Made by a program: the position numbers and the translations under genes. DNA of 34,990 nucleotides, taken from IMG/VR virus record IMGVR_UViG_3300008259_000020, positions 1 through 34,990 of that record; one strand, given 5' to 3'. Position 1 is the stretch's first letter. Every line of letters starts with the position of its first letter. This DNA comes from a virus. The notes under the pieces were generated by a model. The model was not told where the DNA came from. It saw nothing but the letters and a program-made list of their open reading frames with translations, and did not search any database. Shown here piece by piece: positions 7,908-24,458 of this stretch.

Positions 7908-10574
7908 TTAACTCCAATCAAAAAGTGAATTAAACGTAGTATTTTGTTTAGTGCTTTCTAAATCATAATCTAGAACGCCGATAAGATTGTCAAGTTTGTT
8001 ATCAATGATAACTTCTTCCATACTGTTATCATCAAATGGCAATTCTTTAAACCACTGCGGAAGTCTTAATTCGTCTACTGGATATGCTACACTAGTATAC
8101 CCAAGTGGATTTTGTCTTACCTTACAAACAATAACTTTCATGCCGTCCACAATCTCTTGACTGTATCTGTCGCCGTTCATGCGCTTTAGTGTATTCCAGT
8201 TAATGCTTGCACGAACGTGACCTGGCATATTTGCTTTTCCAAGTTTTGCTTCTTCTCGCTGATATGCTTGAATATTATTGGCACGTTTTGGCGAGCCTTT
8301 TTCATATCCAGGACGTTCTTTAAATGCACGTCTAAAGTTTGTAATAGCCTCGAGTATGTCACTTTCCGGTTTCTTTAACAACACCATAGTAAGCAATTCG
8401 CTGAGAAACTCTTGCATAAACACAGGAGTATCACTGCGCTTTAGATCAAGACCCATTGCTTTAATCTTACCAGGTTTGCCGTCGACGTCTTTGCGTTTGT
8501 TTTCTTCATCATATACAAGAACTGCATAACGTTTCTTGGTAATAAACAATCCAGTTTCGCCTACAATTTCACGTCCTGCTTTGATTACTTCTGCACGGTT
8601 CTTTGGGCAATGAAACGCACTGCCCATAAATTCGCCGAAGGTTTTATTTGCTTCTTCGGAAACTTGATCATACAATGTAATAACATTTTCTTTACTCCAT
8701 GGTATGTGTCCGTCGTTGATGTCTTTTTGCAGTGTAGAGAATGCACTAAAGTATACAGAGTCAGTATCACCGTAAATTATTGCCTTACCGACATGATCGT
8801 ATTCGCCAGTGATAATTTCATTTACTTTACTAGCCATGTGCTTGGCAATCTGTCTACCAGTTAGTGTAGTGCTTTGTCCAATGCGTTTGTCGAAAAACCT
8901 GCAACCTGGATTAAGAATAGCACCATACAAACTGTTAAGGTTAATCTTCTTAACCAACTGACGCTTGTCCCAGAACGAAATTTCAGTTTCGTTTCCTGCA
9001 TCCTTTGCTTTTTTAAGCATTGCCTGTAGTTCTTTACGTTCTTTGTACCAACGTGCCAGTAGTCCGGGAATAACAGATTCGAACTCATGTGTAAAGATAG
9101 TACCGTTAGCACTGATCATCCAAGGCATGTTGCTGTCAAACATTAGTTTATAAAGTTCAGCACCGCTTAACACGTCAGTACGACCATCTTCCCAATCAAC
9201 TGTGATGGTCTTGTCTCTGCGTTGTTCCATTACCCAAGTGTATTCAAATGTGCCAAACAGGCCTTCCCACGCTGCGGCAAATGATTTTTTATGCAGTGTC
9301 ATCTGCTCGTGGATATATTGATCAGTGTATTCTGGGCGTAACTGTCCAACAATACTTTCTGGAGCCATGTTTAATGCTCTAATTACTGAAGGATACAGAC
9401 TGTTCAAGTCCATACTTCCAACCCACTGATGCAATCCTTTTTTGGGATATGCAACATATGCACCTGCTGCTTGTGTGTTGCCGCCGTGGTCACGTCTATT
9501 CGGAACCTGCATACCTCTACGGTGTGCTTCGTTGATAATTGCTTGTTCTGTAACAGCAACCGCACCCATAATAGTTTGCAACAGAACAGTGTTGTCGTGA
9601 GCAATCTCATTTGCTAGATCAATAAAGCGTAGTTTTTTGTCTAGTTTATCAAGTAGTGCAACGTCCTGTCTGTTATATTCTATAAAGGTTCTAAAGTCGT
9701 TATTGTAAAGTTGATCTAGTGTGCCTTCGTATTGTGTCTTGCGTTCATCTAGTTCGTACTCGCCAATTGCATCAAGTCTATAACTATGACGTTCTTCGTA
9801 AGTGTACTTACGATACAATTCTAGAGAGTCAATATGTACACGACCTACAAAGTCAAATGTCTCAGAAGTCTTGCCGTACTTTTCGTATTCGCGCTTCTTG
9901 GGATATTGATCCCATAAGCAAAAACGTCTAGTATCGTTTTTACTCAACACTCTAGCAACTCTATTGACAGTGTACGGAACGTCATATCCTTCACTGTTCC
10001 AACCACTTAGAATATCTGCATCTTGTATCAAGTCAAGAAATGTATCCAACATGTCTGCTTCTTTTTCAAAAAGAATACAGTTCTCGCCCCACTCTACACA
10101 ATGTTCACGGGCTTGCTCCATTGTTAGTGTCTTTGGTGGAACTGCTAGTGTTATAAGTGCATCCACCCACTGTAAACAAACAGTGATTGCAGTAATTGGC
10201 ATAAACGGATCGCTAGTAGGAGCAAATCCACGTTCTGGATCAAAGTCGGTCTCGATATCCCAAAATGCTACGTTTAGTTTAGGAGCATCTTGATTTTCGT
10301 AGTTTTCACTTAGACACTGAAAGATAGGATTAATATCGCTTTCAAACAGATTCTTATTTTTATTAATTGCTAATTCTTTTCTGTAGTCTTTGGTATTTTT
10401 ACAAACAATGCGACTTAGCGGATCGCCATATACACTTTTATACTTTCCTTTAGGATCTTCGTAATAGAAAGTATACTTTACTGGATACTCTTGTTGTATT
10501 CGTTTTCCGTCTTTACGTTCAATAACTCTAATAATATCAGAGTCTCTGTCAAACATTGCGTCGACATATGGCAT
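7908..10574 (-). CDS. 43: Family B DNA polymerase, T4 gp43 type
   Basis: 888 residues, close to T4 gp43 (898). Exonuclease motifs are AFWDIETD (Asp106/Glu108), a SGWNSEGYDVPY segment and YNRQDVALLD; polymerase motifs are DLNSLYPSVI (A), KINLNSLYGAI (B) and YGDTDSVYF (C), so both proofreading and synthesis should be active. The last residues, NTTFNSLFDWS, resemble the C-terminal clamp-binding peptide of gp43. AAGGAG lies six bases before the ATG. It is uninterrupted, with no intein or intron insertion. It replicates the phage genome with the clamp and clamp loader found elsewhere in the window. Confidence 0.97.
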   Translation of the reverse strand: MPYVDAMFDRDSDIIRVIERKDGKRIQQEYPVKYTFYYEDPKGKYKSVYGDPLSRIVCKNTKDYRKELAINKNKNLFESDINPIFQCLSENYENQDAPKLNVAFWDIETDFDPERGFAPTSDPFMPITAITVCLQWVDALITLAVPPKTLTMEQAREHCVEWGENCILFEKEADMLDTFLDLIQDADILSGWNSEGYDVPYTVNRVARVLSKNDTRRFCLWDQYPKKREYEKYGKTSETFDFVGRVHIDSLELYRKYTYEERHSYRLDAIGEYELDERKTQYEGTLDQLYNNDFRTFIEYNRQDVALLDKLDKKLRFIDLANEIAHDNTVLLQTIMGAVAVTEQAIINEAHRRGMQVPNRRDHGGNTQAAGAYVAYPKKGLHQWVGSMDLNSLYPSVIRALNMAPESIVGQLRPEYTDQYIHEQMTLHKKSFAAAWEGLFGTFEYTWVMEQRRDKTITVDWEDGRTDVLSGAELYKLMFDSNMPWMISANGTIFTHEFESVIPGLLARWYKERKELQAMLKKAKDAGNETEISFWDKRQLVKKINLNSLYGAILNPGCRFFDKRIGQSTTLTGRQIAKHMASKVNEIITGEYDHVGKAIIYGDTDSVYFSAFSTLQKDINDGHIPWSKENVITLYDQVSEEANKTFGEFMGSAFHCPKNRAEVIKAGREIVGETGLFITKKRYAVLVYDEENKRKDVDGKPGKIKAMGLDLKRSDTPVFMQEFLSELLTMVLLKKPESDILEAITNFRRAFKERPGYEKGSPKRANNIQAYQREEAKLGKANMPGHVRASINWNTLKRMNGDRYSQEIVDGMKVIVCKVRQNPLGYTSVAYPVDELRLPQWFKELPFDDNSMEEVIIDNKLDNLIGVLDYDLESTKQNTTFNSLFDWS

Positions 10575-11785: not shown

Positions 11786-12511
11786 TTACTTTTTAACGTG
11801 TTCGGGTTTACCTTTGTGCTTGGTTTTAGCATAGTCTTTTGCGTCTGCTTTGCTCATGCCTTTAGCAGCCTTTGCTACTTCTTTACTAGCAGGCTTTTCG
11901 CCCGATTTTGCAGCGTAAACCATGCCCATAAACTTTTGTTGTGCTTTTGACTTGGCTTTTTCCAGCAACGACTTGTATGCTGTTGCTTCTGATTCTTTCA
12001 TTTTTAAAGTTTTTGATTCAGCAGTAATAGGACTCATTACTTTTTCATCATACTCTAGTGCATGATATACACTGCCGATATAGTCTGCTGCTTTGGTAAT
12101 CTTGCTTTGCTGCCAACCTTCGAGGCCTTCTGCTTCACTGATGTTTTTTAGCAATTCGTGTAGTTTAATTGCATACTTTGCAATTTTATAAAGTTCAGCA
12201 CGAGCCATTTGTACTTCGTGATCTTGTTCTGCTGCACCAGCAAGTTCAGCAAGACCTTCAATTAGTTTAGATTCTGCCATAGCAGGCTGTCCGGCCTTGT
12301 TTGCTCTTGCTACAAGACCCTTGATAATTTCTGGAGACATTCCAGTTTTTTGTGAAAGTTCTGCCATGTTCTTAGCACCAAACGGTGTGCCAAAGTTTTC
12401 CAAATGATCTGCTAGTCTTGCCATTGCGTTAGCAATCATATCGTTTGGTTCTTTTACTGCTAGTTGTTGCAGTTTACGGCCTAGTGCAGCATACTTCATA
12501 TTTGGTTCCAT
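11786..12511 (-). CDS. Phage protein with C-terminal DUF3008-like domain
   Basis: 241 residues. The N-terminal two thirds are helical (KLQQLAVKEPNDMIANAMAR, EGWQQSKITKAADYIGSVYH). The last 60 residues, with AQQKFMGMVYAAKSGEKPAS and GMSKADAKDYAKTKHKG, match DUF3008, a short basic domain found in phage and bacterial proteins of unknown role. CGGAGA precedes the ATG, and a possible late promoter is just upstream. It probably belongs to the virion or packaged-protein set transcribed late. Unlike many of its neighbours it does not begin with a clear [I/L]-x-E signal. Confidence 0.65.
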   Translation of the reverse strand: MEPNMKYAALGRKLQQLAVKEPNDMIANAMARLADHLENFGTPFGAKNMAELSQKTGMSPEIIKGLVARANKAGQPAMAESKLIEGLAELAGAAEQDHEVQMARAELYKIAKYAIKLHELLKNISEAEGLEGWQQSKITKAADYIGSVYHALEYDEKVMSPITAESKTLKMKESEATAYKSLLEKAKSKAQQKFMGMVYAAKSGEKPASKEVAKAAKGMSKADAKDYAKTKHKGKPEHVKK

Positions 12512-12533
12512 TGGTATCTCCGAGATCTTTTAT

Positions 12534-12541
12534 ATATTTAT
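12534..12541 (-). promoter_or_regulatory. Candidate T4-like late promoter
   Basis: Minus strand GATAAATATATAAAAG contains ATAAATAT, close to the T4 late promoter consensus TATAAATA, and lies about 22 bases before the ATG at 12511, leaving room for a short leader with GGAG. It overlaps the stop of the upstream gene. AT-rich sequence makes chance matches likely, so this is tentative. Confidence 0.35.
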
Positions 12542-13374
12542 CGTTTAATTGTTTTACCGCCGAACAAACTTACATCTTTCATATCCAATGCGTTGTCAGT
12601 TGGCTTTTGCATTTTTACTTTTGTTTTACTGTTTGCAACAGTTGCTACACCGCCTGCACTAGTACCGCCTGCTGTAGCAGTTTCGGCAATTTCTTCAGTA
12701 AATTTCTTAGTAATTTTAATATCGTCACGTCCAAAGGCAGTTACAAATGCTTGGAATTCTTTTGGACCCATAACAAATTCGTTTGCGTTTGGTTTAAAGT
12801 ATTGCATCACACGATCGTTTCTACGTAGTGTGCTCATTAGTCTCGGACTGGTAACTGTAAAGTGTCTTGTAATCTTCTTTGCTGCTGGTTCAACTCGTGC
12901 GTCGGCACTACCCCATGATCCATCTGATCCTTTTTTCTTACCTTTTACAGTAATCTTATTGTCAACTTTGTCAGACTTTTCTTTTTCTTTATATTCTACT
13001 TTTACTTTACCATTACTGGCTTTTTCAATCTGTCCAAGAAATTCGCCAAAATACGAAAATCTGTTAGCCAGTCCTGGAGCATCGATGGATATTGTTACAC
13101 CACGTGCTGCTGTAAATGTTTTGTCGGCAAGCATTTTTTTAATTGCATTAACCAAATCTTCCTTGCTTTTAAGATTGTAAAACTTCCATTTAGCATCGGC
13201 AAATTTTAAATCTGCTGCACTTGGAACAAAACCTGCATAACCTACCAAGTATGGGTTGTCATCACCACCACCTGCTGCGGCAATTGGCTTCTTAATGCCA
13301 AATCTCATAAAGATATTGCCGGCTGTTTTTTCTTTTTCTACTCTGTCTAGTTCTACAATCTGATTAACTTGCAT
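12538..13374 (-). CDS. Unknown phage protein with N-terminal I-V-E processing-like signal
   Basis: 278 residues. It begins MQVNQIVELDRVEKEKT; IVE at residues 6-8 fits the [I/L]-x-E signal cut by the T4 prohead protease. The middle is Lys-rich (VEYKEKEKSDKVDNKITVKG, then KKKGSDGSWGSADARV). A Gly/Ala/Thr-rich stretch (ETATAGGTSAGGVATV) precedes the C-terminus. No enzyme motif was seen. The basic, partly low-complexity character would suit an internal head protein packed with DNA. It lies 2 bases after the 55-residue gene. Confidence 0.55.
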   Translation of the reverse strand: MQVNQIVELDRVEKEKTAGNIFMRFGIKKPIAAAGGGDDNPYLVGYAGFVPSAADLKFADAKWKFYNLKSKEDLVNAIKKMLADKTFTAARGVTISIDAPGLANRFSYFGEFLGQIEKASNGKVKVEYKEKEKSDKVDNKITVKGKKKGSDGSWGSADARVEPAAKKITRHFTVTSPRLMSTLRRNDRVMQYFKPNANEFVMGPKEFQAFVTAFGRDDIKITKKFTEEIAETATAGGTSAGGVATVANSKTKVKMQKPTDNALDMKDVSLFGGKTIKR

Positions 13375-13376
13375 TG

Positions 13377-13544
13377 TTATCCACCTACTAATTTACCGCG
13401 CAATGGGTGTTTTTGTGTTGGTCCCATAGTGGGATGTACTTTTTTAGGCATAGGATCGGATCCTTTTGCTTGGTCTGGTTTTTTCTTTTCGCGACCAACA
13501 TCTACATTAAGTAAAGCAGTTTCTGTTATTTCAAAAACTTTCAT
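13377..13544 (-). CDS. Mini-protein (55 residues) with N-terminal I-T-E processing-like signal
   Basis: Begins MKVFEITETALLNVDVGREK, followed by a basic, Pro-rich tail ending HPLRGKLVGG. The first eight residues resemble those of the protein at 16680-17495 (MKVNEITE), and ITE at 6-8 fits the T4 gp21 cleavage rule. The start overlaps the previous stop as ATGA and the end lies 2 bases before the next start. After cleavage a short basic peptide of about 47 residues would remain, like the small internal peptides of T4 heads. Function unknown. Confidence 0.55.
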   Translation of the reverse strand: MKVFEITETALLNVDVGREKKKPDQAKGSDPMPKKVHPTMGPTQKHPLRGKLVGG

Positions 13545-13732
13545 TTTGCTTTCCTTAGACCTGCAATTTTTGCATTGATACCGTACTGTGCTAGTATTTG
13601 TTGTTTTGCTTCTTGAACATTACGTGCAGATACTTGAACAGGGATCCATTGACTATAGAACTTCTGTTGCACTTGTACGTTTGCAACAAAAATGGAAAAC
13701 ACCTGTGTATCTTTTAATTCACGTATTAGCAT
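13541..13732 (-). CDS. Small phage protein (63 residues), unknown function
   Basis: From the ATG at 13732, just past the stop of the 648-residue gene, it reads MLIRELKDTQVFSIFVANVQ and ends YGINAKIAGLRKAK. The frame is open further upstream but would then run backwards into the large gene. The N-terminus resembles the MLLRELFE of the 486-residue protein but has D rather than E after ELK, so a processing signal is doubtful. The fold seems mixed: a beta strand pair, then a basic helix (ARNVQEAKQQILAQYG). Confidence 0.5.
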   Translation of the reverse strand: MLIRELKDTQVFSIFVANVQVQQKFYSQWIPVQVSARNVQEAKQQILAQYGINAKIAGLRKAK

Positions 13733-13733
13733 A

Positions 13734-15680
13734 TTAATATTTATTCCAATCAAACGGTTTACGTTTTTTAGGAATTTCTTCAACTGCATGACCGCCCTGC
13801 ATTGCTGCCCATTCACGTAAACTATATTTAGGCTCAACGGATTCATTTGGGTTACTAGTCCAAAATGCCTTCCCTTGACTAGTTTGACTGGTACTAGGTT
13901 TAATATCGTTGCCCATACTTTTCACAAATTTGTACATTGCAGTAGCTATTCCGTTGCGTTGATATTCATCATTAACACGCAAATTGCCGGCTACCAAATA
14001 TGGATCAGCCTTTTTAAATCGTTTAAACAAACCAGAAGGTTCATCGTTTCCTATAACGATAAATCTCACATATCCAATAGACTTATTATCTATAAATGCT
14101 TCAACTTTTATTTGCGGAATCATATTACTAGGATAATGATTTGCAACTATTTTTACTTTGCCTATCTTAGTATCAACTACAGTTTCTTTATGAAAGTCTT
14201 TGTTTAATAATTCAGGATTTATGCTTTCAAAAAGTCCTATGTTAAACAAAACATTTGTGTTAGATTCATTTAGTTTAAAGAACGGACCTTGGATGATACT
14301 TTTGCTTTTTTCTTTTACTAATCCTCTATTGAGATTTTTCTTAAATTCATCTGTGATGTGTCTATTTCGCAGTCCTTGACTAAAGAACAAGTGCGTTTCT
14401 ACAGGATTGTTCCCGAACACCTTTGCTATTGCTGCCATGCGATTTCTGCCTTCATGCCCTACTACTCTAGCAGGCATAGAAAAATCACCATTTTCCCACG
14501 ATTCTGGTATTTCTATTCTAAGGAAAGGACTGCCGATAGTGCCGCCTTGTTCGAGATGTTGGGCTATTTTTTCAGAAGGTTCACCGTCTAATGGTGCTGC
14601 TAGATCTATAAAATGCTTAGGAGTCATAGTCACACGCAAACCTAAATAATCGACTTCTTGGTTGTTAGGAACAGCACCCCATCCATTTTTATTGTCAATT
14701 ATATCTACATTGGTATTGACACCTTTTACAATACGATCGTCTTCTTTAAAAAACTCATTTTCTCTTATTGTAAGACGACCTTGCTTTGTTAAAAATTCTT
14801 GATATTTTGGATCAGAGTGTTTCATTACAAAATTTATAGAACTATCTTTGTTAAAATCGTTGAACGTATAAAAATTGGTACTTGGCCCAATAAACTGATA
14901 TTCGTCGAAAGTTTTGTGATAAATTACAGAATCAATTCTTCTAAAAAATAATCCTCGGCCGTATCTAGATTGAGAAAATTTGTCAACTACGTAATATCGT
15001 TTTTCTATTTTAACAATATCGTTTATTTCAATATCTTCTCGCCAGTTTTCTGTATTTTCTTTGACTTGTTTCTTACTCTTGCTGTCTTCATAAACTGGAT
15101 TGTTATTGTTTAACTTTGATTCTTTATAGTACGGATTTTTTGGATCAGTGTCTCCGGTAACATCTGGCCACCAATCTAACTCGAAACGTTTTCCATCAGC
15201 AAACATCTTCTTCATTGACTTGATGCGCTTTTCATATTCGGCTTTCGAAGGTTTAACATTGTTTTCAACAACGTCAAGCACATATTGTATAGTAACTGCA
15301 TTGGCACTTAAACTTGCACATCTTGCACCCACTTCACCTTTTAGATGATCTATTAAAATACTTTCGCTGCTTTTTGCCAAGTCGTCGGAAAGATCATGCG
15401 GTACTCTCAAGTCAACATAGGAATAAACATAATCGTAGTGTGGTAGTGGTGACGAGTGTAGAATGTATTCGTCCAACACTTCGATTCTTTTAAATCCGTC
15501 TTTGTTATACCAAATTGCTCGTTTATGTGTTAATTCATCTGGATTTTTAAAAAACTTTACCAGTTGTTTTACATATCCGGCAGGTTCGTCATTTTTCCAT
15601 TGAGATAAAACATTTAAAGATTCAGCAACTTTTTTTCCACGCTTATCGTTTACTTCAAACAGATCTTGTATTTTCATCAT
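13734..15680 (-). CDS. Large multidomain phage protein with L-F-E N-terminal signal and C-terminal GNAT-like motif
   Basis: 648 residues. The start MMKIQDLFEVNDK (or one codon later) contains LFE, fitting the prohead protease rule. A segment near residue 405, ARVVGHEGRNRMAAIAKVFG, resembles the E-G-x-x-R-x-x-A core of ParB/sulfiredoxin-like domains. Near residue 580, VNDEYQRNGIATAMYKF matches motif A of GNAT acetyltransferases (acetyl-CoA loop R/Q-x-x-G-x-A/G). The first 350 residues are unassigned. The combination suggests a toxin- or effector-like enzyme that might be packed in the head, but activity is inferred from short motifs only. The start overlaps the KYGV stop of the gene before it (ATGA). 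Confidence 0.6.
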   Translation of the reverse strand: MMKIQDLFEVNDKRGKKVAESLNVLSQWKNDEPAGYVKQLVKFFKNPDELTHKRAIWYNKDGFKRIEVLDEYILHSSPLPHYDYVYSYVDLRVPHDLSDDLAKSSESILIDHLKGEVGARCASLSANAVTIQYVLDVVENNVKPSKAEYEKRIKSMKKMFADGKRFELDWWPDVTGDTDPKNPYYKESKLNNNNPVYEDSKSKKQVKENTENWREDIEINDIVKIEKRYYVVDKFSQSRYGRGLFFRRIDSVIYHKTFDEYQFIGPSTNFYTFNDFNKDSSINFVMKHSDPKYQEFLTKQGRLTIRENEFFKEDDRIVKGVNTNVDIIDNKNGWGAVPNNQEVDYLGLRVTMTPKHFIDLAAPLDGEPSEKIAQHLEQGGTIGSPFLRIEIPESWENGDFSMPARVVGHEGRNRMAAIAKVFGNNPVETHLFFSQGLRNRHITDEFKKNLNRGLVKEKSKSIIQGPFFKLNESNTNVLFNIGLFESINPELLNKDFHKETVVDTKIGKVKIVANHYPSNMIPQIKVEAFIDNKSIGYVRFIVIGNDEPSGLFKRFKKADPYLVAGNLRVNDEYQRNGIATAMYKFVKSMGNDIKPSTSQTSQGKAFWTSNPNESVEPKYSLREWAAMQGGHAVEEIPKKRKPFDWNKY

Positions 15681-16063
15681 ACACCATACTTGTTGCGTTT
15701 TGGTTTGGCAACTGGACTGTTTTTATTTGTACTGTCCATTTCTTTACTTTTTGTATCGCCGTTGTTTAAATCTTTATAATTTAAACCAATTACTTTATAA
15801 CTTTGTTTAAGCATTTCGGCTTCGACTTCTGTGTACGGGTGTGCAGTTTTTTTCTTGCCTATCCAACTCATTGAATCCATATCTGGCGGAGTTTTTCCAT
15901 CAGAACTTGCAAGGGCCATCATCAATCTGTACTGTCCGTAGTCACTACCAAATGTTCCTAAATTCGGACCATCATCATATGTATGCAAACCTGCGGTTGA
16001 CTCTTGTTCTCGTTTTGATAGTTTACTTCCGGCGGCTTCACTGATTATATCATGTATTTTCAT
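15677..16063 (-). CDS. KYGV-tail paralogue A, candidate internal head protein
   Basis: 128 residues. It begins MKIHDIISEAAGSK, with ISE at residues 7-9, then carries SDYGQYRLMMALASSDG and ends NSPVAKPKRNKYGV. The next gene upstream has the same plan and almost the same last 15 residues, so the two arose by tandem duplication. GGAG lies six bases before the ATG, made by the Gly-Val codons at the end of the preceding gene. No enzyme motif. The shared C-terminus suggests a common binding partner. Confidence 0.6.
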   Translation of the reverse strand: MKIHDIISEAAGSKLSKREQESTAGLHTYDDGPNLGTFGSDYGQYRLMMALASSDGKTPPDMDSMSWIGKKKTAHPYTEVEAEMLKQSYKVIGLNYKDLNNGDTKSKEMDSTNKNSPVAKPKRNKYGV

Positions 16064-16064
16064 G

Positions 16065-16472
16065 TTAAACTCCGTACTTGTTGCGTTTTGGTTTTGAAAC
16101 CGGGCTTGACTTATTTACGTCCGTGGTTTCTGTGCTTTTACTACTGGTGATTTGCACTGGTGTAACACCCATCAATCTTGAGGCCAAAGTAACAATTTCT
16201 TCTTCTTCTTTGGTGTACGCAACCTGTGTTAAATTTTCTGCATATTCAGATTCTTGCTCAAAGTCGTCATTGGTTAAATGACCATCTGCCATTGCTTTTG
16301 CGGCTGCAACTGCAACACCGTATCTGTACTGCATGTAAGGATCTGTATTTCTAAGTTGCTTTTGTATAAAGGTAGCAGGCATAGGATCTGTAATTCTAGC
16401 AGGAAGTTTTCTAGACTTGCCAGTAAGTTTTGGTTCGCGCTGTTGTTCGTTAATAATGTCTCTAATTTTCAT
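16065..16472 (-). CDS. KYGV-tail paralogue B, candidate internal head protein
   Basis: 135 residues. It begins MKIRDIINEQQREPK, with INE at residues 7-9, has TDPYMQYRYGVAVAAAKAM in the middle and an acidic EEEEIVTLASRLMGV helix, and ends KSSPVSKPKRNKYGV. It is the paralogue of the gene at 15677-16063: both share the N-terminal signal, a Y-x-Q-Y-R core and the basic tail. The start overlaps the upstream KKK stop as ATGA. No known function. Confidence 0.6.
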   Translation of the reverse strand: MKIRDIINEQQREPKLTGKSRKLPARITDPMPATFIQKQLRNTDPYMQYRYGVAVAAAKAMADGHLTNDDFEQESEYAENLTQVAYTKEEEEIVTLASRLMGVTPVQITSSKSTETTDVNKSSPVSKPKRNKYGV

Positions 16473-16693
16473 TTTTTCTTACGCCCTCTAAAACCCGGCT
16501 TTGTATTTAGCGCACCTGTCATGTGTGGAAGATTAAACCATAATTCAAACCATTCTTTATCACCAGGCTTGATATTTTTTTCTCGTTCTATACGACGTTT
16601 TTCTGTTCCGGTTACAGAGATGTTTTCGTTGTAAGGAGTATATCCTTTAAACTCATTTATGCCTGCAAGACGTTTTAGATCATCGATATTCAT
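16469..16693 (-). CDS. Small basic phage protein, unknown function
   Basis: 74 residues. It begins MNIDDLKRLAGINEFKGY, where INE at 12-14 could also fit an [I/L]-x-E rule, and ends in the basic KPGFRGRKKK. The middle, EKRRIEREKNIKPGDKEWFE followed by LWFNLPHMTG, may form a helix-loop-helix. AAGG precedes the ATG, which lies within the end of the upstream gene. Considered part of the same late block. Confidence 0.55.
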   Translation of the reverse strand: MNIDDLKRLAGINEFKGYTPYNENISVTGTEKRRIEREKNIKPGDKEWFELWFNLPHMTGALNTKPGFRGRKKK

Positions 16694-17495
16694 TTTTACC
16701 TTCTTGCTCTTTTTCTTTCCACCAATTTAAAAAATTCATTGTTGGATTGCTTAGATACCAAGCAACATCTTTATATGTTTTAAATCTTGCTTGTAGCAAT
16801 TCTTGTTTAATTTTTCCGTATTCTGGGTCACGCATTGCTCTTCTATCAGATGGTAAATTAATAAGTTCTTTTGATTTTTTACCGGCATACTTGCTTAAAA
16901 ATTCTTGTAGGTTCAGCATATAGTAGAATGGTGTATCTACTATTACTTCGCCGTCCCATTCGCTTTGACTAGGAATACCTTGCTTATAACCTGCTAAGGC
17001 ACGGTTAACTTCTTCACTAGCATCATAGTCTGTTGGCCGCGATAAAGTCGTTCGCGCACCGCCTCCTAGATCTTTTGGTTTATATTTGTCATTGTAGCCT
17101 TCAAAACTTCCTAAGTCTAGTATCTCTGGGTTCCAATATGCTTTAAATTTACCACCCGGTATCATAATAAAGTTTGTGCCATGAAATCCTGATATATTAT
17201 CGGGTGTAGTAACCAACGCTTGTGTAGGGTGTTGTACACCTAAACCGTTGAAGATTTTTTGTTGAAAGAAGCTACTATTGCCTTTTACACCTTTGCGTTC
17301 TCCGCCTTCGTTATTAACTTTTATCATAAGATTTGTAGCGCCTCTGCTTCGAGATTCACCGCCCTCAAACATTCTATATAATATAGGAGTATTGCCTAGT
17401 TTATTACACATTTCAGCAGCAACTTTTACACGCTCAATAGCGTGATCTGTATCGTTAATAAATGTAACTTTTTCAGTAATCTCATTTACTTTCAT
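16680..17495 (-). CDS. Candidate packaged protein with ADP-ribosyltransferase-like features
   Basis: 271 residues beginning MKVNEITEKVTF; ITE at 6-8 matches the prohead protease rule. Near residue 38 ILYRMFEGG recalls the first (Arg) motif of ADP-ribosyltransferases. GTNFIMIPGGKFKAYWNPEI near 105-125 and WDGEVIVDTPFYYML near 205-220 (position of the catalytic Glu strand) follow at roughly expected distances. In T4 the packaged enzyme Alt is an ADP-ribosyltransferase with a removable N-terminal targeting peptide, which makes the parallel attractive. No clear S-T-S motif was seen, so the enzyme call is weak. Start and end overlap the neighbours by a few bases. Confidence 0.5.
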   Translation of the reverse strand: MKVNEITEKVTFINDTDHAIERVKVAAEMCNKLGNTPILYRMFEGGESRSRGATNLMIKVNNEGGERKGVKGNSSFFQQKIFNGLGVQHPTQALVTTPDNISGFHGTNFIMIPGGKFKAYWNPEILDLGSFEGYNDKYKPKDLGGGARTTLSRPTDYDASEEVNRALAGYKQGIPSQSEWDGEVIVDTPFYYMLNLQEFLSKYAGKKSKELINLPSDRRAMRDPEYGKIKQELLQARFKTYKDVAWYLSNPTMNFLNWWKEKEQEGKNEYR

Positions 17496-18952
17496 TTCTT
17501 TTTAGCTCTTCCTGATTTCATATTGGCACACCAGTGGTACATCTTTCCACGTTCGCCGCCAGAATTCTTTGCACGTTTGCGTAATGCTGTTACACTGCCA
17601 CTGCAACTAGCACCGGCACGTTTTACTCTACCAGGACGGCTTTTGCCTTTTATTTTACCATCTGCAAAGTTTTCGTTATATGCTTTGTCGGCGGCTGCTT
17701 TTGCACTTGCACCATCTGGGTGGCGTGGATTAATACTAACAACATCACCATTCATAAGGTCGCTTACACTAGCACTCTTTCCTACTTTGTCCAACAGTTG
17801 ATGCAGTTTATCATTTGGGTCGTAGCCATTGGTTTCATATCCCATTTTGCCACGTACTTCTGTTCTTTTGCCTGTGTTTTTATCTAAAATATGCAATATT
17901 AACATATTGGCACGTTTGTCACGTTCCAGTTGTAACAAATAATTTTTGCTATCAGCAACATTTTCGTTTATATCTACGTCGGCACTTTTAAAAAATTCTG
18001 GATATTTTTTGTTGAACATTCGCATAATGATGCCGGCTTTTGTGTGTGCTTGGTTTTCTTCGGAACTACCAGTTTTGCCGCTGTCTTGATTTAGATCACC
18101 ATCTAGCGATTGTTTAAAATGTACAAGTTCGTGTGCAAACGTTCTTAGTATGTCAATAGGATGACGATCCTTAATACCTAGATATATAGCACGGTCATCG
18201 TTTACAAAACGTCCAAACGATGGATAGTCTTGATGATCTAGGTACGGTTCTAGTTTAATTTCGGGTAACTTATTGAGATCCAACACTTTTACAGCAATTG
18301 GAAGAAACTTCTCAACAGCCGACATTAAATCATTTTTTTTTAGATCCAATGACTGATTTTCACTAACGGACTGGCTGATCCCCATTGCACTGCGAACAGC
18401 ATCATACATCTGTTGAGCAAGTTTAGGATTTGGTACACCTTGTGTAAATGAATCAAAGTCGCCTGTTGCTGCTGCCGCTCGCATTTTACTAGCACTCATG
18501 CCTTCTGCACCATCGGCGTCAGGATCTCTTTCGCCAGCACTTACAACTGTAATGCTATCAAACTGAAATGGTACTTTTCCGCTCTTGTCTGGTTTTCCAT
18601 TGTAGGTGTCGAACAGTTTCTGAAAACCATCTACTCTGTCGCTGCCTGCAACAAACACAACATCAGTGTAACCTAAACTTTGAATATATTCTAGTGCAAC
18701 AACAGGTGTGTTAATGCCCTCACGACCGATTTCTATACCAGGAAAGAATGCCTTAGCAAACTTTAATTTTGTACCAAAGTCAAGTGGATCTTTTTTTTTA
18801 TCTTGACTGTGACTTAAAAAAAGAAAATGATCGCCGGGTATGCTTTTGATTTTATCAACTAATTTAGCATGACCGATAGTTGGAGGATTCATTCTGCCAA
18901 ATGCGAGAACTGCAACTTTACTACTTTGTTCAAACAGTTCTCTCAGTAGCAT
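17492..18952 (-). CDS. Nucleotidyltransferase-metallopeptidase fusion with basic Cys-containing tail
   Basis: 486 residues. It begins MLLRELFEQSSKVAVLAFGR, with LFE at 6-8 fitting the prohead protease rule. Residues 10-185 form a HIGH-type nucleotidyltransferase: GRMNPPTIGHAKLV (T-x-G-H), VVFVAGSDRVDGF and a GMSASKMRAAAATGD segment in place of the ISSTxIR motif. Around residue 275, FAHELVHFKQ is an HExxH zinc motif, with a Glu in SSEENQAHTKAGIIMR as possible third ligand (gluzincin-like). The last 50 residues are basic with two Cys (ASCSGSVTALRKRAK and YHWCANMKSGRAKKK). GGAG and TAATG link it to the gene before. The fusion could be an injected effector; substrates are unknown. Confidence 0.75.
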   Translation of the reverse strand: MLLRELFEQSSKVAVLAFGRMNPPTIGHAKLVDKIKSIPGDHFLFLSHSQDKKKDPLDFGTKLKFAKAFFPGIEIGREGINTPVVALEYIQSLGYTDVVFVAGSDRVDGFQKLFDTYNGKPDKSGKVPFQFDSITVVSAGERDPDADGAEGMSASKMRAAAATGDFDSFTQGVPNPKLAQQMYDAVRSAMGISQSVSENQSLDLKKNDLMSAVEKFLPIAVKVLDLNKLPEIKLEPYLDHQDYPSFGRFVNDDRAIYLGIKDRHPIDILRTFAHELVHFKQSLDGDLNQDSGKTGSSEENQAHTKAGIIMRMFNKKYPEFFKSADVDINENVADSKNYLLQLERDKRANMLILHILDKNTGKRTEVRGKMGYETNGYDPNDKLHQLLDKVGKSASVSDLMNGDVVSINPRHPDGASAKAAADKAYNENFADGKIKGKSRPGRVKRAGASCSGSVTALRKRAKNSGGERGKMYHWCANMKSGRAKKK

Positions 18953-19287
18953 TAGTATTCTCCTTTTTTAAAGTTCTCAACTTCTGCTTCTAAAATTCTA
19001 TTGATAATTTCAATTTTATCGTTATCGGCCAACAAGTCTTCCGGACGCTTTTTAATATTAAACTTTTTAACATACTTTTTAACAGCCGCATCAATAATCG
19101 GGATCATTTCTTTCTTAGAAAACTTACCACCGTTCTTAACTGCTTCTTGTACATTTAACATCATAGGATACATATGTCTTCTATAAAATGCAGGATCGTT
19201 ACGCATAAAGACCATAAGGTCTTCGACCAAATCCCACGGAAGATTTTCGTTCATATCCATATTTGAAAAATCTGTTACTTTTACCAT
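18952..19287 (-). CDS. Helical phage protein, unknown function
   Basis: 111 residues, charged and mostly helical: LPWDLVEDLMVFMRNDPAFY, FSKKEMIPIIDAAVKKYVKK, then IEIINRILEAEVENFKKGEY. No family recognised. It starts 7 bases inside the end of the preceding gene (ATGGTAA) and ends at the TAATG junction with the fusion gene, so all three are likely expressed together. Confidence 0.6.
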   Translation of the reverse strand: MVKVTDFSNMDMNENLPWDLVEDLMVFMRNDPAFYRRHMYPMMLNVQEAVKNGGKFSKKEMIPIIDAAVKKYVKKFNIKKRPEDLLADNDKIEIINRILEAEVENFKKGEY

Positions 19288-19844
19288 TTTCTACACGACC
19301 AATATCTTGCTTTTGTTCTAGGACCTGGGTTATCACAATTGTGTCTTGCTCTAAAACTACGACGACGAGCAGGATTTGATTTTTTAATTTTCATATTCGG
19401 ATCGCCAAAGTTTACCTTTTTAATATTTCCTGTACCTGGGTTCTTAACATAAACCTTGAACTTTTTAACATCGCCACGCATGGGCTTGCCAAGCGGTACT
19501 TTACGTCCTTGATATTCTGCTTCATCTAGTACATCATCTTCGTTGAACCACATAACACCGTAGGCTTCGTAAAAGTCGTCGCCATCGTATGTTTCTTCTT
19601 CAACTACGTCACCTTCGGTTGAGATCTCAATATCAAAGTCTTCGAATCCCTGTTCAAACATATAATTTGCTAAACGATTAGCATATTCGTCTGATTCTTC
19701 TTCACTCAATTGTCGAGGCAACGGTATTTCGTAAACAGTAGTATCCTGACTGCTTTCATAAATTTCGTGACTGGGGAAAATACTTTCATCTAACTTTTTA
19801 GATGTTTGTTGCTTTTCCATAATTATTCTTACAAAATGTTCCAT
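19281..19844 (-). CDS. Acidic phage protein with short Arg/Cys-rich C-terminus
   Basis: 187 residues. The first 120 residues are very acidic (EESDEYANRLANYMFEQGF, EEETYDGDDFYEAYG); the last 45 are basic and end ARRRSFRARHNCDNPGP plus RYWSCRKW. The Cys- and Arg-rich end resembles the tail of the neighbouring 486-residue protein, and such tails recur in marine phage proteins. GAGG lies before the ATG at 19844. An acidic body with a basic tail would suit a head-interior or DNA-contacting protein. No function assigned. Confidence 0.6.
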   Translation of the reverse strand: MEHFVRIIMEKQQTSKKLDESIFPSHEIYESSQDTTVYEIPLPRQLSEEESDEYANRLANYMFEQGFEDFDIEISTEGDVVEEETYDGDDFYEAYGVMWFNEDDVLDEAEYQGRKVPLGKPMRGDVKKFKVYVKNPGTGNIKKVNFGDPNMKIKKSNPARRRSFRARHNCDNPGPRTKARYWSCRKW

Positions 19845-19851
19845 GTTTACC

Positions 19852-20199
19852 TCAGTGATTTAGTGTGATGCTGTTTATACTACCTTGAGTCCAAGAAGCA
19901 GTTGCTCGTACCCAAACATAATTTCCTATAAAATTCTTAATAGTTGTACTGGTTGTTGACCCAACCGCAGTGTATTCTGTAGTGGGTACTGTAAACCAGT
20001 CTGTTTCTACAGGTGATACTGCTAGTGTTGCTTGCATCTTAACAGTACCTATAAACCCTGCTACTGAATATTGAACAGTATGGTAACCATCTGTTTTACC
20101 GTAATAGCCGTCGGCCTTGTATTGTTCGCCGGTAACAGACTTGGTACCTGTACCGGAATATGCTTGATTTGATAAAATTGTTTCACTTGTAGACGACAT
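19852..20199 (-). CDS. Beta-rich, Thr/Ser-rich protein, possibly virion surface or fibre
   Basis: 115 residues from the ATG at 20199. The composition is Ser/Thr/Gly/Tyr-rich with alternating hydrophobic residues (YHTVQYSVAGFIGTVKMQAT, TTIKNFIGNYVWVRATASW), as in a beta-sandwich. The ending SWTQGSINSITLNH resembles the last strands of small phage structural domains. The frame continues to a TTG at 20214, but the ATG is preferred. No strong ribosome binding site was seen; it may be coupled to the preceding gene, whose stop is 5 bases before the ATG. Confidence 0.5.
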   Translation of the reverse strand: MSSTSETILSNQAYSGTGTKSVTGEQYKADGYYGKTDGYHTVQYSVAGFIGTVKMQATLAVSPVETDWFTVPTTEYTAVGSTTSTTIKNFIGNYVWVRATASWTQGSINSITLNH

Positions 20200-20203
20200 A
20201 TAA

Positions 20204-20905
20204 CTATTTATCAATGTTTGCTTTATAGATTAACTTATCTATTCTGGTGATATTATCACCAACAATCATTTGCACCAGCATTACTACATGTTCATTACGT
20301 ACATACATGTAAGTTCCTTGAATCCAGCGATATTCGTTTTCGTGATGATCTAATGCAACTTTGCCAATTGAAACATTTTTAGAATTTTTCTTAATCCAGT
20401 CGGCTAATATCTTACTGCCCGGTTTCTTTCCAAATGTCAATTTCCAAGGAAACTTTGGTTCTTGATTTACTAAGATAACATTTTGATTGTTGGTTAGAAA
20501 GTCAATTGCTGACTCAGAAGGTTCCCATATTTCGACGTTAACAGAAAGTTTTGATGATACTTTTTTTAATAAGTCGTGGTCGTTTGTGTAAATTATAAGT
20601 GTACGACTTTCACAACGAATCATATATTCGCCGGCATTTTTTAAACACTTGTATATGTGATAGGCTTCATCAACTTCGTGTGAATGTATAACTGTGGCTT
20701 TAGAAAATCTATTTCTAAGAGTTAAAATTTCATTGGATTTATTACGCTGAACAAATTCTTTTAAACGTTGTTCAGCGTAAGACAATTTACCATTACGTTG
20801 TAAATCTGTACGGAAAATACTTGTAAGTGTATTTGTAGTTTTTAACTTATACAAATATTTCCCGTAATGCAATCGCTTTGCTTCATGCAGTTTCAGATTG
20901 CTCAT
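20204..20905 (-). CDS. Conserved-type phage protein, unknown function
   Basis: 233 residues from the ATG at 20905, inside the end of clpA. Segments such as FRTDLQRNGKLSYAEQRL, TLIIYTNDHDLLKKVSSKL and VNVEIWEPSESAIDFLTNNQ point to an alpha/beta protein. The C-terminal half (FPWKLTFGKKPGSKILADWI, then YRWIQGTYMYVRNEHVVMLV) has a long beta region. A TTG three codons earlier is an alternative start. No family or motif was recognised. The 23-base overlap with clpA implies shared translation. Confidence 0.6.
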   Translation of the reverse strand: MSNLKLHEAKRLHYGKYLYKLKTTNTLTSIFRTDLQRNGKLSYAEQRLKEFVQRNKSNEILTLRNRFSKATVIHSHEVDEAYHIYKCLKNAGEYMIRCESRTLIIYTNDHDLLKKVSSKLSVNVEIWEPSESAIDFLTNNQNVILVNQEPKFPWKLTFGKKPGSKILADWIKKNSKNVSIGKVALDHHENEYRWIQGTYMYVRNEHVVMLVQMIVGDNITRIDKLIYKANIDK

Positions 20906-23132
20906 GTGTTTCAACTACTAATTTAATCTCGTTATCATTGATATCGATATGTACTTCGCCGCCATCTTTTAGGCTTCCAAACAACATAAGCCTTGAAAGA
21001 GGACGTTTAATATCTTTGTCAATCACACGTTGTAGCGGTCTTGCACCCATTTTAGGATCAAAGCCTTTGTCAACCAAGTAATCCAGTGCTTCGTCACTAA
21101 CCGTAATTTTAACATTCTTGTCTTTGACTTGATCCATGAGTTCTTTCAAGAACTTTCCTACAATTTTCATCATAACAGGCTTGCTAAGTTTTGAGAATGT
21201 AATTACACCATCGAGACGATTTCTAAATTCCGGACTGAAGTACTTCTTTAGTTCGCCGTCTTCGTAATCTCTGTCAAGACTTTGACTAAAACCAATAGTA
21301 TTTTTCTCTGCTTCTTTAGCACCAAGGTTAGTGGTTAGGATAAGAACGCAGTTACGAGCATCTGCTTCTTTGCCGTTGGACCCTGTGATTTTACCATTGT
21401 CCATCAACTGTAGAAGCACTGCACTAACATCAGGATGTGCTTTTTCAATTTCGTCTAGCAACAGTACACAGTTAGGATTCTCTTGTAGTTTGATGATGAG
21501 TTGTCCTGCATCATCTTCAAATCCAACGTAGCCCGGAGGTGCACCGATAAACTTTGCAATACTGTGCTTTTCTTGGTATTCACTCATATCAAAACGAATT
21601 AGTTTAACACCAAGGTGATGTGCAAGTTGTTTTGCTGTTTCAGTTTTACCAGTACCTGTTGGCCCCATAAACACAAACGAACCGATTGGTTTGTTTTCAG
21701 GTTTAAGTCCTGCTTGAGCAACAAGAATTTTGTCAACAATACTTTCAATTGCACTGTCTTGACCATAAACACTTGATTTTAGATTTGTTTCTAGATTGAC
21801 AAGATTTTCTGTTTCGCGTTCGGCAATTTGATCTTCGGGAATCTTTACAAGTTTAGCAAGTTCGTACTGAATATTTTCAGCAGTTACAACCTTGTTGTCA
21901 ACTTGATCCAGCACTTTGAATCTGCTACATGCAACGTCAATGAGATCGATTGCTTTATCAGGAAGTTTTTTATCTGCTTGATACTTGACTGAAAGTTTAA
22001 CAGCGGCTTCGATTGCATCATCAGTGATTACTACACTATGATAATCCTCATAGTACTTGCGAATACCATCAAGAATTTTAACAGACATTTCTGGTGTAGG
22101 TTCATCAACATTTACACGCTGGAAACGACGCATAAGTGCGCGATCTTTTTCAAAATACTTGCGATACTCTTCCCAAGTAGTGCTTGCAACAACCTTAACG
22201 TTGCCTTTTGATAGGGCAGGTTTGAGCATGTTTGCAAGATCGTTAGCACTGTTTCCACTGCCAGCGCCTGCACCACTGATCATGTGTGCTTCATCAATAA
22301 ACATAATGGTCTTGCCCTTTGTTTGTAGGGCTTGAAGAACAAGTTTAAAGCGTTCTTCAAAGTCGCCGCGGTACTTACTGCCGGCAAGCATACTACCAAT
22401 GTCCAGTGCATAAACATTATAGTCTTGTAAAAACTTTGGTACTTGTTTGTTAACAATTTTCCAAGCAAGACCTTCTGCAATTGCAGTTTTACCTACACCA
22501 GGATCGCCAACCATTAGTACGTTTGACTTGGTTCTACGTCCAAGTGCAAGAGCAACTTGTTCTACTTCTTCTTCACGTCCAATAACAGGATCAATCTTGT
22601 TTTTCTTTACTTCGCTGTTCAAGTCTGTGGTAAAGGAACGAAGTGCCTTGTTAGCAACGCCTTGATTTTCCTGTTGTTCTTCTTCGTCAACCATGCTATC
22701 AAATTCAGTACTCATGTAAGTAACAAATTTGTCTTTTGAGATACCGGCTTGTTGTGTTACAAAGTATGCATACGAACGTTTTTCGTTTAGAATACTAACA
22801 AATACGTCACCAACGTCAATGTTATTACGTCCATTAAACAATACCTGTGTAAATGCTCTATTCAATACACGTTCAACAGTTTGTGTCTTTTTAGGCTTGT
22901 ACCTTGTGCCTTCGATCTTAATCTCATCTAGTTTTGTCTTGAGATAGTTTTCAAGATTCTTTTTCATTAGTTCAGGGTCGGCACCAAACCCAATAATAAC
23001 TTTTTCAAAGTGTTCTTCACACAGTATTGCATACAAAAGATGCTCAAGTGTAATGTACTCATGCTGTAGTTTTTTAGCATCGTTCATTGCTTTGTCAAAA
23101 ACAACTTGTAGTACTTGGCTAGGTTCAACCAT
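20883..23132 (-). CDS. clpA: ClpA-type AAA+ unfoldase
   Basis: 749 residues, near the length of bacterial ClpA (758). A Clp N-domain (ITLEHLLYAIL) comes first. The first AAA+ module has GDPGVGKT (Lys215), FIDEAH and GSKYRGDFEERFK; the second has GPTGTGKT (Lys496) and LLLDEIEKAHPDV. There is no ClpB-type middle coiled coil. IGF at 613-615 sits where E. coli ClpA has IGL, the loop that docks on ClpP, so the protein may use the host protease. AAAGGA lies before the ATG, and the gene overlaps def by 8 bases. In this phage it may redirect protein turnover during infection. Confidence 0.95.
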   Translation of the reverse strand: MVEPSQVLQVVFDKAMNDAKKLQHEYITLEHLLYAILCEEHFEKVIIGFGADPELMKKNLENYLKTKLDEIKIEGTRYKPKKTQTVERVLNRAFTQVLFNGRNNIDVGDVFVSILNEKRSYAYFVTQQAGISKDKFVTYMSTEFDSMVDEEEQQENQGVANKALRSFTTDLNSEVKKNKIDPVIGREEEVEQVALALGRRTKSNVLMVGDPGVGKTAIAEGLAWKIVNKQVPKFLQDYNVYALDIGSMLAGSKYRGDFEERFKLVLQALQTKGKTIMFIDEAHMISGAGAGSGNSANDLANMLKPALSKGNVKVVASTTWEEYRKYFEKDRALMRRFQRVNVDEPTPEMSVKILDGIRKYYEDYHSVVITDDAIEAAVKLSVKYQADKKLPDKAIDLIDVACSRFKVLDQVDNKVVTAENIQYELAKLVKIPEDQIAERETENLVNLETNLKSSVYGQDSAIESIVDKILVAQAGLKPENKPIGSFVFMGPTGTGKTETAKQLAHHLGVKLIRFDMSEYQEKHSIAKFIGAPPGYVGFEDDAGQLIIKLQENPNCVLLLDEIEKAHPDVSAVLLQLMDNGKITGSNGKEADARNCVLILTTNLGAKEAEKNTIGFSQSLDRDYEDGELKKYFSPEFRNRLDGVITFSKLSKPVMMKIVGKFLKELMDQVKDKNVKITVSDEALDYLVDKGFDPKMGARPLQRVIDKDIKRPLSRLMLFGSLKDGGEVHIDINDNEIKLVVETHEQSETA

Positions 23133-23643
23133 TTTTAATCCTTTTGATTCTGCGCTTTTCGGCCATTTTATATTTTAGTTTACTAACTCTGTCGATGTAC
23201 TGAATACCATGTAAATGATCGTATTCATGTAAGAATATACGTGCATCTATATCATCAAACTTTGTTTCTACATGTATAACATTTTTAAAGTCACTTGTCA
23301 AGGTATCAAATTCAACAATGCAACTAATTGGACGTTTTACTTTTAAAAACAGCCCAGGATGACTTAAACAGCCTTCGGGTCCTTCTTCAGTTTCTTTGCT
23401 TAATCCTTTAATAACAGGATTCATCACAACAGTTATCTCACCGTATTGTCTATTTAACACAGGTTTCATAACAAAAATCTGATACGGTACTCCTACTTGA
23501 TTAGCACTTAACCCTAGACCGCCTTCTTTAACCACAAGGTCGATCATATCTAATGCAATCGGTGCAGGATGCAGTTGATTAAACGGCCAAGTTTGCGTTG
23601 GCGTTTCTAGCATAACATTAGGTGCTAGTATTAATTGCATCAT
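23125..23643 (-). CDS. def: Peptide deformylase
   Basis: 172 residues, with all three metal-site motifs: [10 protein letters not shown] (motif I), EGCLSHPG (motif II, Cys ligand) and [14 protein letters not shown] (motif III, HExxH). The enzyme removes the formyl group from the starting Met of new proteins; phage versions are known in marine phages, and some act on host photosystem proteins. The start lies 26 bases inside the end of dnaJ, and the stop overlaps clpA, so the three form one operon. Confidence 0.95.
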
Positions 23644-24424
23644 TTATAACTTTTATCCTTTCGATTATGATATCGTCTGATATCTTTGGAACAAAACCTT
23701 TTACTGTTAGATAAAGATGGCCAGTTATTCCTTTAGCAGGGTCTATTAAACCGTATCCTGCAATAGAAAAAACAGTTCCAGGTTGAGTTCCTTTAGGTAT
23801 TTTAACATTTATTTCGTTGCCAGTCAATGACTTAATAACAACGCTTGTTCCTAAAATAAGATCAAAAACACTAACTTCTTTTGTGCATTTTAGATTCTTA
23901 CCATCTCTTTCAAACACTGAATGTTTCTTTACTCTAACAAGAACAATTAAATCACCTCTAGGTATTGAAGCGATACTGTTGTCGCCTAGACCTTTAAAAC
24001 GTATGGCTTCGCCGTCTTGTATACCAGCATGTATTTTAATTGTAGCAATAGTACTTTGTCCATTAAACAAATTGTAATTTGCAATTAAATCTTTGCCAGT
24101 AACTACTTCTTCTAAGTCTAGCGTAATTGCTATTTTAATATCTCGATTTTTTCTAACATTAGGATATCCACGCATAGTTCCAAAGAATGCATTTAATATG
24201 TCATCCATGTTTGTTGAATTGAAGTTGTATTCCTGTTTAGGTTGATCATACTCTGCACGTTTTGTAGTATCTTTTAACGTTTCGTATGCTTCGTTTATTT
24301 CAGCAAAACGTATGGTATCACCACCCCTGTCAGGATGGTGTTCCATTGCTAATTTTCTATATGCTTTTTTTATTTCATCTTGTGTAGCAGTTTTTGAAAC
24401 ACCAAGTACTTTATAATAATCCAT
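23618..24424 (-). CDS. dnaJ: DnaJ-like co-chaperone (type II, no zinc finger)
   Basis: 268 residues. The J domain occupies residues 1-60 ([20 protein letters not shown], then HHPDRGG with the HPD motif that activates DnaK). No Cys-rich zinc finger and only a short linker follow, then the C-terminal substrate-binding domains ([28 protein letters not shown]-type segments). The plan matches CbpA/DnaJ type II and it probably works with host DnaK. It heads the dnaJ-def-clpA operon; no strong ribosome binding site precedes the ATG. Confidence 0.9.
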
Positions 24425-24429
24425 TGCTT

Positions 24430-24453
24430 ATTATATATCGTCTATACGTATAG
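24430..24453 (-). promoter_or_regulatory. Possible promoter with palindromic operator upstream of dnaJ
   Basis: On the minus strand the 12-base perfect palindrome CTATACGTATAG (24442-24453) lies 6 bases before TATAAT (24430-24435), the consensus -10 hexamer. No TTGACA-like -35 box is present at 17 bases; the palindrome covers that position, so it could be an activator or repressor site. The gap before dnaJ is only 34 bases. Confidence 0.4.
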
Positions 24454-24458
24454 CGATA

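Follow-up and report, generated by a model that had tools for sequence, protein, structure and literature searches.

The idea that diverse proteins with only a targeting sequence in common are packed in the heads of T-even phages is established (PMC3012670, PMC12373910). The first ten residues of the T4 internal protein IPIII are described as enough for packaging, residues 4 and 7 serving targeting and residues 8 and 10 serving cutting (PMC9026906), and the T4 enzyme Alt is described as cut at ITE-6 and as losing 63 C-terminal residues at LTE-619 (PMC5694885). The present analysis concerns a gene block at 12538-18952 of a 34,990-base stretch (the window), which forms bases 1-34990 of the 111,225-base record IMGVR_UViG_3300008259_000020 of an uncultured T4-like virus of bacteria. 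Seven proteins of this block share short starts, which are very probably capsid-targeting propeptides of the T4 kind, predicted to be cut by the prohead protease and carried on modular cargo. A set of enzymes probably enters the head of this virus together with the DNA, and relatives exchange the enzymes behind a tag that they keep.

T4 IPI, IPII and IPIII resemble the block in having a short N-terminal peptide on proteins without other shared sequence, with several genes per phage. They are described as restriction inhibitors, whereas here large multidomain proteins whose C-terminal tails are fixed are among the cargo, and the T4-like viruses concerned reach 382 kb; the ITE of IPI lies only at residues 17-19, outside the short rule used below. 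Alt is a packaged enzyme with N-terminal and C-terminal cuts; in the present group a Glu stands before a tail of mostly 55-60 residues, and the residue two places ahead of that Glu is often hydrophobic. The Alt C-terminus is acidic, whereas the tail beginning NFADG is basic and shows no similarity to it (score 18.0 against a shuffled mean of 17.8), and Alt has an ADP-ribosyltransferase (ART) domain, whereas no ART domain was found in the window block. The gp24 propeptide MAKINELLRE is the T4 form closest to MKIxDLxE and MKINELLxE; gp24 itself is a vertex shell protein and not cargo.

Two further systems come close. Virion enzymes of the cyanophages S-CREM2 and S-SM1 include a cytidylyltransferase homologous to one in the block and bearing a T4-form tag, and differ by the longer T4-like tag MKxFxxFLxE. 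Polyvalent proteins, injected multidomain phage proteins, have been surveyed with jumbo phages included (Iyer et al. 2017 and a jumbo-phage survey of 2021; PMC5512222, PMC7824862). They combine unrelated domains (GNAT, ParB-like, peptidase) and are thought to be injected, and one of 60 tagged relatives has LPD23. The block has a firm cytidylyltransferase and otherwise weak matches. The available parts of those surveys do not discuss a T4-type targeting peptide such as the block proteins carry. The open-licence PubMed Central literature joined capsid targeting with cyanophages only in a T4 review and never with phage metagenomes, and among the titles listed for wider queries none was that of a survey covering such tags across phages from the environment. 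New here are the interchangeable cargo slots and, in front of a basic C-terminal tail, a possible second site for the protease.

Start peptides of the block

The seven genes proposed in the first-pass annotation were all confirmed at their positions and N-termini, on the minus strand and with ATG starts: MQVNQIVE, MKVFEITE, MKIQDLFE, MKIHDIISE, MKIRDIINE, MKVNEITE and MLLRELFE. A simple, loose rule, [LIM]xE whose E falls at residues 6-10, fitted 7 of the 9 called genes in 12538-18952; outside the block it fitted 9 of the 146 other genes of the 111-kb record (Fisher p = 1e-6). Genes in uncultured records were called by a simple script, and a few starts may be wrong. The window also holds genes that we take, from their translations, to encode DNA polymerase, clamp, clamp loader, a ClpA-like protein, thymidylate synthase, DHFR and PhoH. 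Those read as DNA polymerase, clamp, clamp loader, thymidylate synthase and DHFR had no such start. A tighter pattern, R2 (M-x-[IVLFMA]-x-[DEQ]-[ILFM]1-2-x-E), was drawn by eye from the seven starts, and its 7/9 block genes against 0/146 others are circular in this record. R2 was therefore tried on relatives, on the 330-kb relative G045 and on S-CREM2. Among named phages, the DNA of 12000-25000 and the proteins 15677-16063 and 16680-17495 had no match, and 13734-15680 had one weak match.

T4 genes fetched as controls showed the starts MAKINELLRE (gp24), MKTYQEFIAE (ipII and ipIII), MLKEQLIAE (gp22), MNEPQLLIE (gp21) and MELITE (Alt), and the gp23 site is FLTE. Fourteen T4 genes were picked, and the loose rule fitted 7 (ipII, ipIII, 21, 22, 24, e.6 and inh); ipI, alt, 67, 68, 23, 20 and alt.-2 lay outside it, the residue-6 cut of Alt preceding its range. 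Because inh and e.6 fit while ipI, 67, 68 and 23 do not, the simple rule alone is neither proof nor complete.

Tags and exchanged cargo in related viruses

Six viral-contig scans and four stretches of the closest relative, G002, gave 216 loci with 2718 distinct proteins; for most of these loci a block protein had served as query, and the rates below are not genome-wide. Single-linkage families merged 576 multidomain proteins, so 661 full-length clusters were used, counted after exclusion of proteins shorter than 45 aa or identical to those of this genome. With one member taken per cluster, [LI]xE ended at residue 8 in 50 clusters and at residue 9 in 45, compared with 17 at residue 6, 8 at residue 7 and 6-18 at each of residues 10 to 15; the 49 clusters with Glu at residue 5 reflect an acidic position inside the tag. 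When the last residue of R2 was varied, Glu was found in 80 clusters, Asn in 24, Ala in 20 and Lys in 18. In relatives the N-terminal motif stands on proteins of 80 different clusters. In G045 (386 genes called) the simple rule fitted 7/12 genes of the homologous region and 29/374 others (p = 2e-5), and R2 fitted 4/12 and 0/374, respectively. The tag signal in G045 is local. One further start, MKVREIVSE, was missing from the G045 gene list, its start probably being miscalled.

Two slots showed exchange of the protein body. In slot A, recognised by an FDWNKY-like tail, the protein is 648 aa long in this virus, while L003 has a version of 150 aa and L097 one of 321 aa, with the same neighbour gene in all three, and minimal forms of 86-104 aa hold barely more than the tag, a RIVKGVNTT module and the tail. 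Other versions hold a domain here called X or a stretch FDIDDTLF, which we take to be a HAD-phosphatase motif (Pfam gave no match for L173). The 648-aa protein itself comprises domain X, a RIVKGVNTNVD module, a ParB-like region, a weak GNAT match and the FDWNKY tail. In slot B, proteins of 278, 58 or 232 aa align significantly only over their last 50-54 residues. Of the 24 relative proteins in which domain X was found, 7 match R2 and 18 fit the loose rule, and in different viruses the domain stands under two tag styles (MKIQDLFE, MKIHEILAE, MKTFKNYLKE). The tag is independent of its cargo, the body being replaced and the tag kept. In L112-L135, domain X proteins and their neighbours often carry the longer T4-form tag MKxFxxFLxE, on three adjacent genes in L112.

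As for the cargo, the nucleotidyltransferase-metallopeptidase of the first-pass annotation held as a cytidylyltransferase for 17492-18952 (PHROG E = 4e-54), where the metallopeptidase had a weak match around HELVH (E = 0.0018). The GNAT-like label had weak matches, below curated cut-offs, in 13734-15680. A region of that protein resembling two relatives may be ParB-like, a label taken from ParB-like matches in the tagged set, perhaps to other members. The ART guess for 16680-17495 was unsupported, with no match in Pfam, PHROG or NCBIfam and no relevant sequence match in PDB; the predicted model was too poor to support an ART fold (pLDDT 37.6). A fold search with a 647-aa model gave no match at E <= 0.001, and PADLOC found nothing in five proteins. 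Pfam and PHROG were also scanned with the longest 60 of the 80 tagged clusters, with matches listed up to E = 0.01, some below curated cut-offs. Pfam matches among these 60 were to cytidylyltransferase (7), sigma-70 region 4 (3) and NT5C nucleotidase (2), and also to TauD dioxygenase, pterin dehydratase, endolysin-type domains and, in one of the 60, LPD23.

Two relatives are described separately. L174:4014-5930 (+) begins with the tag MRLRQLFE and a cytidylyltransferase-like region and contains sigma-70 region 4 (Pfam E = 1.9e-14), making it a possible injected sigma factor. In G045, far from the block, the protein C1:231183-232040 (L261:16683-17540) has the tag MRYSEIAE and behind it a PARP/ART-like domain, whose match (E = 1.7e-5) falls just short of the cut-off; it is a possible counterpart of T4 Alt.

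These domains bear on a different use of the tag, namely that it packages structural or DNA-condensing internal head proteins which do not reach the host as active enzymes. In favour of such a role, 17492-18952 ends in a basic tail (18 K+R and 3 D+E in 60 residues), and several members are small (55-135 aa) and have no recognisable enzyme. The tagged domains of relatives are instead cytidylyltransferase, NT5C nucleotidase, TauD, sigma-70 region 4 and PARP-like, and the cargo varies among relatives, as host-facing proteins should. We regard a purely structural or condensing role as unlikely.

Virion proteins, prohead protease and opposing evidence

Mass spectrometry (MS) of S-SM1 virions is reported to have detected 41 proteins, including the putative cytidylyltransferase T4-GC190 (PMC3037559). 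This protein, SSM1_190, begins MKKFSAFLNE and is 33% identical to 17492-18952 (E = 2e-39); 11 further called genes of S-SM1 fit the simple rule. For S-CREM2, 52 virion proteins are given in Table 3 of the report (PMC10665884). When its 219 annotated genes were scored, a T4-form or R2 tag was found on 6/52 virion-detected proteins and on 1/167 undetected ones (ORF175; p = 8e-4). The six are a SAM hydrolase (MKDFDSFLEE), a kinase (MKRFDAFLTE), the cytidylyltransferase ORF154 (MKNFSSFLTE; homologous to 17492-18952, E = 2e-18), ORF13 (MKDLHSFLTE), ORF136 (MQTFSMFFSE) and ORF15 (MNFSEFNE). Such a tag was on 0/24 virion proteins classed as structural. The simple rule fitted 7/28 non-structural detected proteins and 9/167 undetected ones (p = 0.003). 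The available parts of the S-CREM2 (PMC10665884) and S-SM1 papers do not mention an N-terminal or packaging signal. Two of the virion proteins, SSM1_190 and the S-CREM2 kinase ORF14, are homologous over their first 55 residues, with 39% identity (E = 2e-5). The Cas9-like S-CREM2 virion protein ORF12 (L279:7704-10313, minus strand) has no N-terminal tag, but a stretch of the tag's form, RFASFMAE, lies further into the chain at residues 18-25.

The prohead protease gp21 and the major capsid protein gp23 were sought with Pfam. Among 45 records, most of them short, both were present in G002 and neither in any other. Among longer records gp21 was found in 7/12 and gp23 in 7/18 (12 new), both being in all four above 330 kb (330-382 kb). 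Overall, each was found in 8/57 different records, which include G002 and those four. Five viruses of the group have YLSE, YLAE or YLRE at the end of the predicted gp23 propeptide, with L and E constant and the middle residue varying, and a sixth, more distant virus has LLME at the predicted boundary. Over 6.3 kb the block is identical letter for letter in L003, L095 and L096 (contigs of 138.7 kb, 330 kb and 13.9 kb), and the two shorter contigs look like pieces of a T4-like virus with a large genome. Because G002 and the 330-kb record share this identical block, G002 is probably a fragment of a large genome, and the same probably holds for the 111-kb record.

The first-pass proposal of a capsid-targeting start, head packaging and a cut at [L/I]-x-E is supported by the likeness to T4, the cargo swaps, gp21 and gp23 in relatives and, most of all, the virion proteomes that contain tagged homologues. 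Part of this evidence speaks against a rival reading, in which the peptide serves as a helix that docks to some other common partner (tail, baseplate, replisome or chaperone) and is unrelated to the head protease. The block lies near a gene read as DNA polymerase (7908-10574) in a record without gp21 or gp23, and a short amphipathic helix would be in keeping with the hydrophobic residues at positions 3 and 6/7. A docking helix would not, however, account for the favoured terminal Glu (80 clusters against 24 for the next residue), for L-x-E also ending the predicted gp23 propeptide and T4 propeptides, or for tagged homologues in virions in which none of the 24 structural S-CREM2 proteins is tagged; we consider it very unlikely. 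That the starts are alike by chance, through AT-rich start regions or copied 5' ends, is hardly credible: 15677-16063 and 16065-16472 are full-length paralogues (33% identity, E = 4e-12), which corrects the first-pass view of unrelated bodies for this pair, and the S-SM1 cytidylyltransferase and S-CREM2 kinase are alike beyond the tag, yet the strict pattern occurs in 0/146 other genes and in 80 different clusters of relatives, and domain X stands under different tags.

Several observations weigh against capsid targeting. R2 is derived from the window itself, and over the whole of G045 its last residue is E in 4, S in 5, N in 3 and R in 3 genes, so that Glu is not favoured, nor does [LI]xE clearly peak at E8/E9 there. 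The 111-kb record has no Pfam match to gp21 or gp23, nor have G029 (275 kb) and G049 (195 kb). The late-promoter sequence TATAAATA, the only type searched, occurs zero times in the window against 2.98 expected; a 19.7-kb stretch of G002 has one, immediately upstream of a tagged gene (1.84 expected). S-PM2 encodes the cytidylyltransferase, which is reported as undetected in S-PM2 virions (PMC3037559). Most S-CREM2 virion proteins are untagged, one undetected protein (ORF175) is tagged, and the simple rule is weaker alone there, with 3/24 structural proteins also fitting. The block tags (E8/E9) are shorter than the E10 tags on MS-detected cyanophage proteins, ORF15 excepted, and the cytidylyltransferase of the closest relative begins MQLRELFN, without the Glu. 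Block proteins show no clear depletion of internal [LI]xE sites, with 10 seen and 13.4 expected by composition (Poisson p = 0.22), and outside the block 299 were seen and 255.5 expected, which gives p = 0.09 for the block against that outside rate. The block ranks eighth lowest among sliding nine-gene windows, which is suggestive at most. Depletion as a mark of protease exposure was accordingly rejected, and a cruder, striking count (15/1105 against 1186/17911 windows) was discarded because it was uncorrected for composition.

For the capsid-targeting propeptides, the following course is proposed. The tagged precursors would be made late and, by means of the tag, would dock at the core of the prohead scaffold. 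Cleavage behind the Glu of [L/I]-x-E by a prohead protease of the gp21 type would then take off 8-14 residues. The products would stay with the DNA inside the head and pass into the host together with it. By analogy with T4 Alt and the internal proteins, they would likely serve to bring the host under control early, through nucleotide or NAD metabolism or through counter-defence. Docking, cutting by gp21, survival in the head, injection and early action are inferred.

C-terminal tails, further members and implications

The tail NFADG...MYHWCANMKSGRKKK was directly preceded by Glu in 73/73 distinct contexts, the sequence before it being freely variable. Two places before that Glu the residue was L, I, M, V or F in 32/53 non-redundant contexts of the 73, compared with 94/424 at neighbouring positions (p = 3e-8; four N-terminal instances were excluded, one of which follows [LIM]xE). 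The internal RIVKGVNTT module was preceded by Glu in 10/11 distinct contexts and by [LIM]xE in 7/11. By analogy with the C-terminal cut of Alt, the Glu before the NFADG tail is a possible second protease site; it could instead be structural. The NFADG tail had no match in named phages, where the low-complexity filter of BLAST may matter. Protease-like junctions were also sought at the YWSCR and DUF3008 tails, whose sequences were too alike to judge. A tentative extension, which we hold to be rather doubtful as a whole, is a two-ended system. In it, 'empty' tag-and-tail genes would take exchangeable cargo (sigma-factor, ADP-ribosyltransferase, nucleotidase and cytidylyltransferase, delivered together), and the prohead protease would also cut at hydrophobic-x-E before the NFADG tail and RIVKGVNTT, turning one precursor into separate effectors in the head.

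The features of the block and its neighbours are given in Table 1. The tagged set is probably larger than seven genes. From their sequences and those of relatives, 16469-16693 and 19281-19844 (a relative of which begins MKNFISIIWE) are probable further members, and 11786-12511 is a possible one. Relatives of 16680-17495 begin MKINEIIE, MKLHEITE and MRSQEFVTE. In the reading MLIRELKD the Asp is kept as LKD or LQD in L003 and L097; at this position of T4 IPIII, Asp is described as allowing targeting and blocking cutting (PMC9026906). Outside the window, a 489-aa protein (G000:C1:99929-101398) begins MRYSDFKLVE, another candidate tag.

Table 1. Positions of the tagged genes, their parts and candidate further members in the window.
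Feature	Positions	Strand	Tag or start (positions)	Remarks
241-aa protein	11786-12511	-		Relatives begin MRNKKISE / MKNKKISE; matching stretch MAESKLIE internal here (Met78)
278-aa protein, slot B	12538-13374	-	MQVNQIVE (13351-13374)	Cargo, then C-terminal tail PTDNALDM..SLFG..TIKR common to shorter relatives
55-aa protein	13377-13544	-	MKVFEITE (13521-13544)	
63-aa reading	13541-13732	-	MLIRELKD...	From internal Met of 13541-13846; Asp replaces Glu; status doubtful
648-aa modular protein, slot A	13734-15680	-	MKIQDLFE (within 15654-15680)	Tag follows a preceding Met (MMKIQDLFE)
Slot A tail LREWAAMQGGH..FDWNKY	13737-13844	-		Constant while middle varies
Domain X	15111-15629	-		Residues 18-190 of the 13734-15680 protein; several N-terminus forms in relatives
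128-aa protein	15677-16063	-	MKIHDIISE (16037-16063)	Tail PKRNKYGV
135-aa protein	16065-16472	-	MKIRDIINE (16446-16472)	Tail PKRNKYGV
74-aa protein	16469-16693	-	MNIDDLKRLAGINE	IxE at residues 12-14; GI[NT]E in listed relatives
271-aa protein	16680-17495	-	MKVNEITE (17472-17495)	
486-aa protein	17492-18952	-	MLLRELFE (18929-18952)	Cytidylyltransferase, HELVH metallopeptidase-like region, middle module, basic tail
Basic C-terminal tail NFADG...MYHWCANMKSGRAKKK	17495-17671	-		59 residues, directly after Glu427 of the 17492-18952 protein
187-aa protein	19281-19844	-	MEHFVRIIME	IxE at residues 8-10, T4 IPIII register; tail FRARHNC..YWSCRKW

If the starts are capsid-targeting propeptides, there would be new tags and tails for trial in the T4 protein-packaging system, and a packaging signal would be offered for enzymes known from cyanophage virions. 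Proteins that are packaged in the head and probably injected could be predicted by sequence alone in uncultured T4-like viruses, even where their bodies are unrecognisable, and many 'hypothetical' genes would become candidate early host-takeover or counter-defence proteins.

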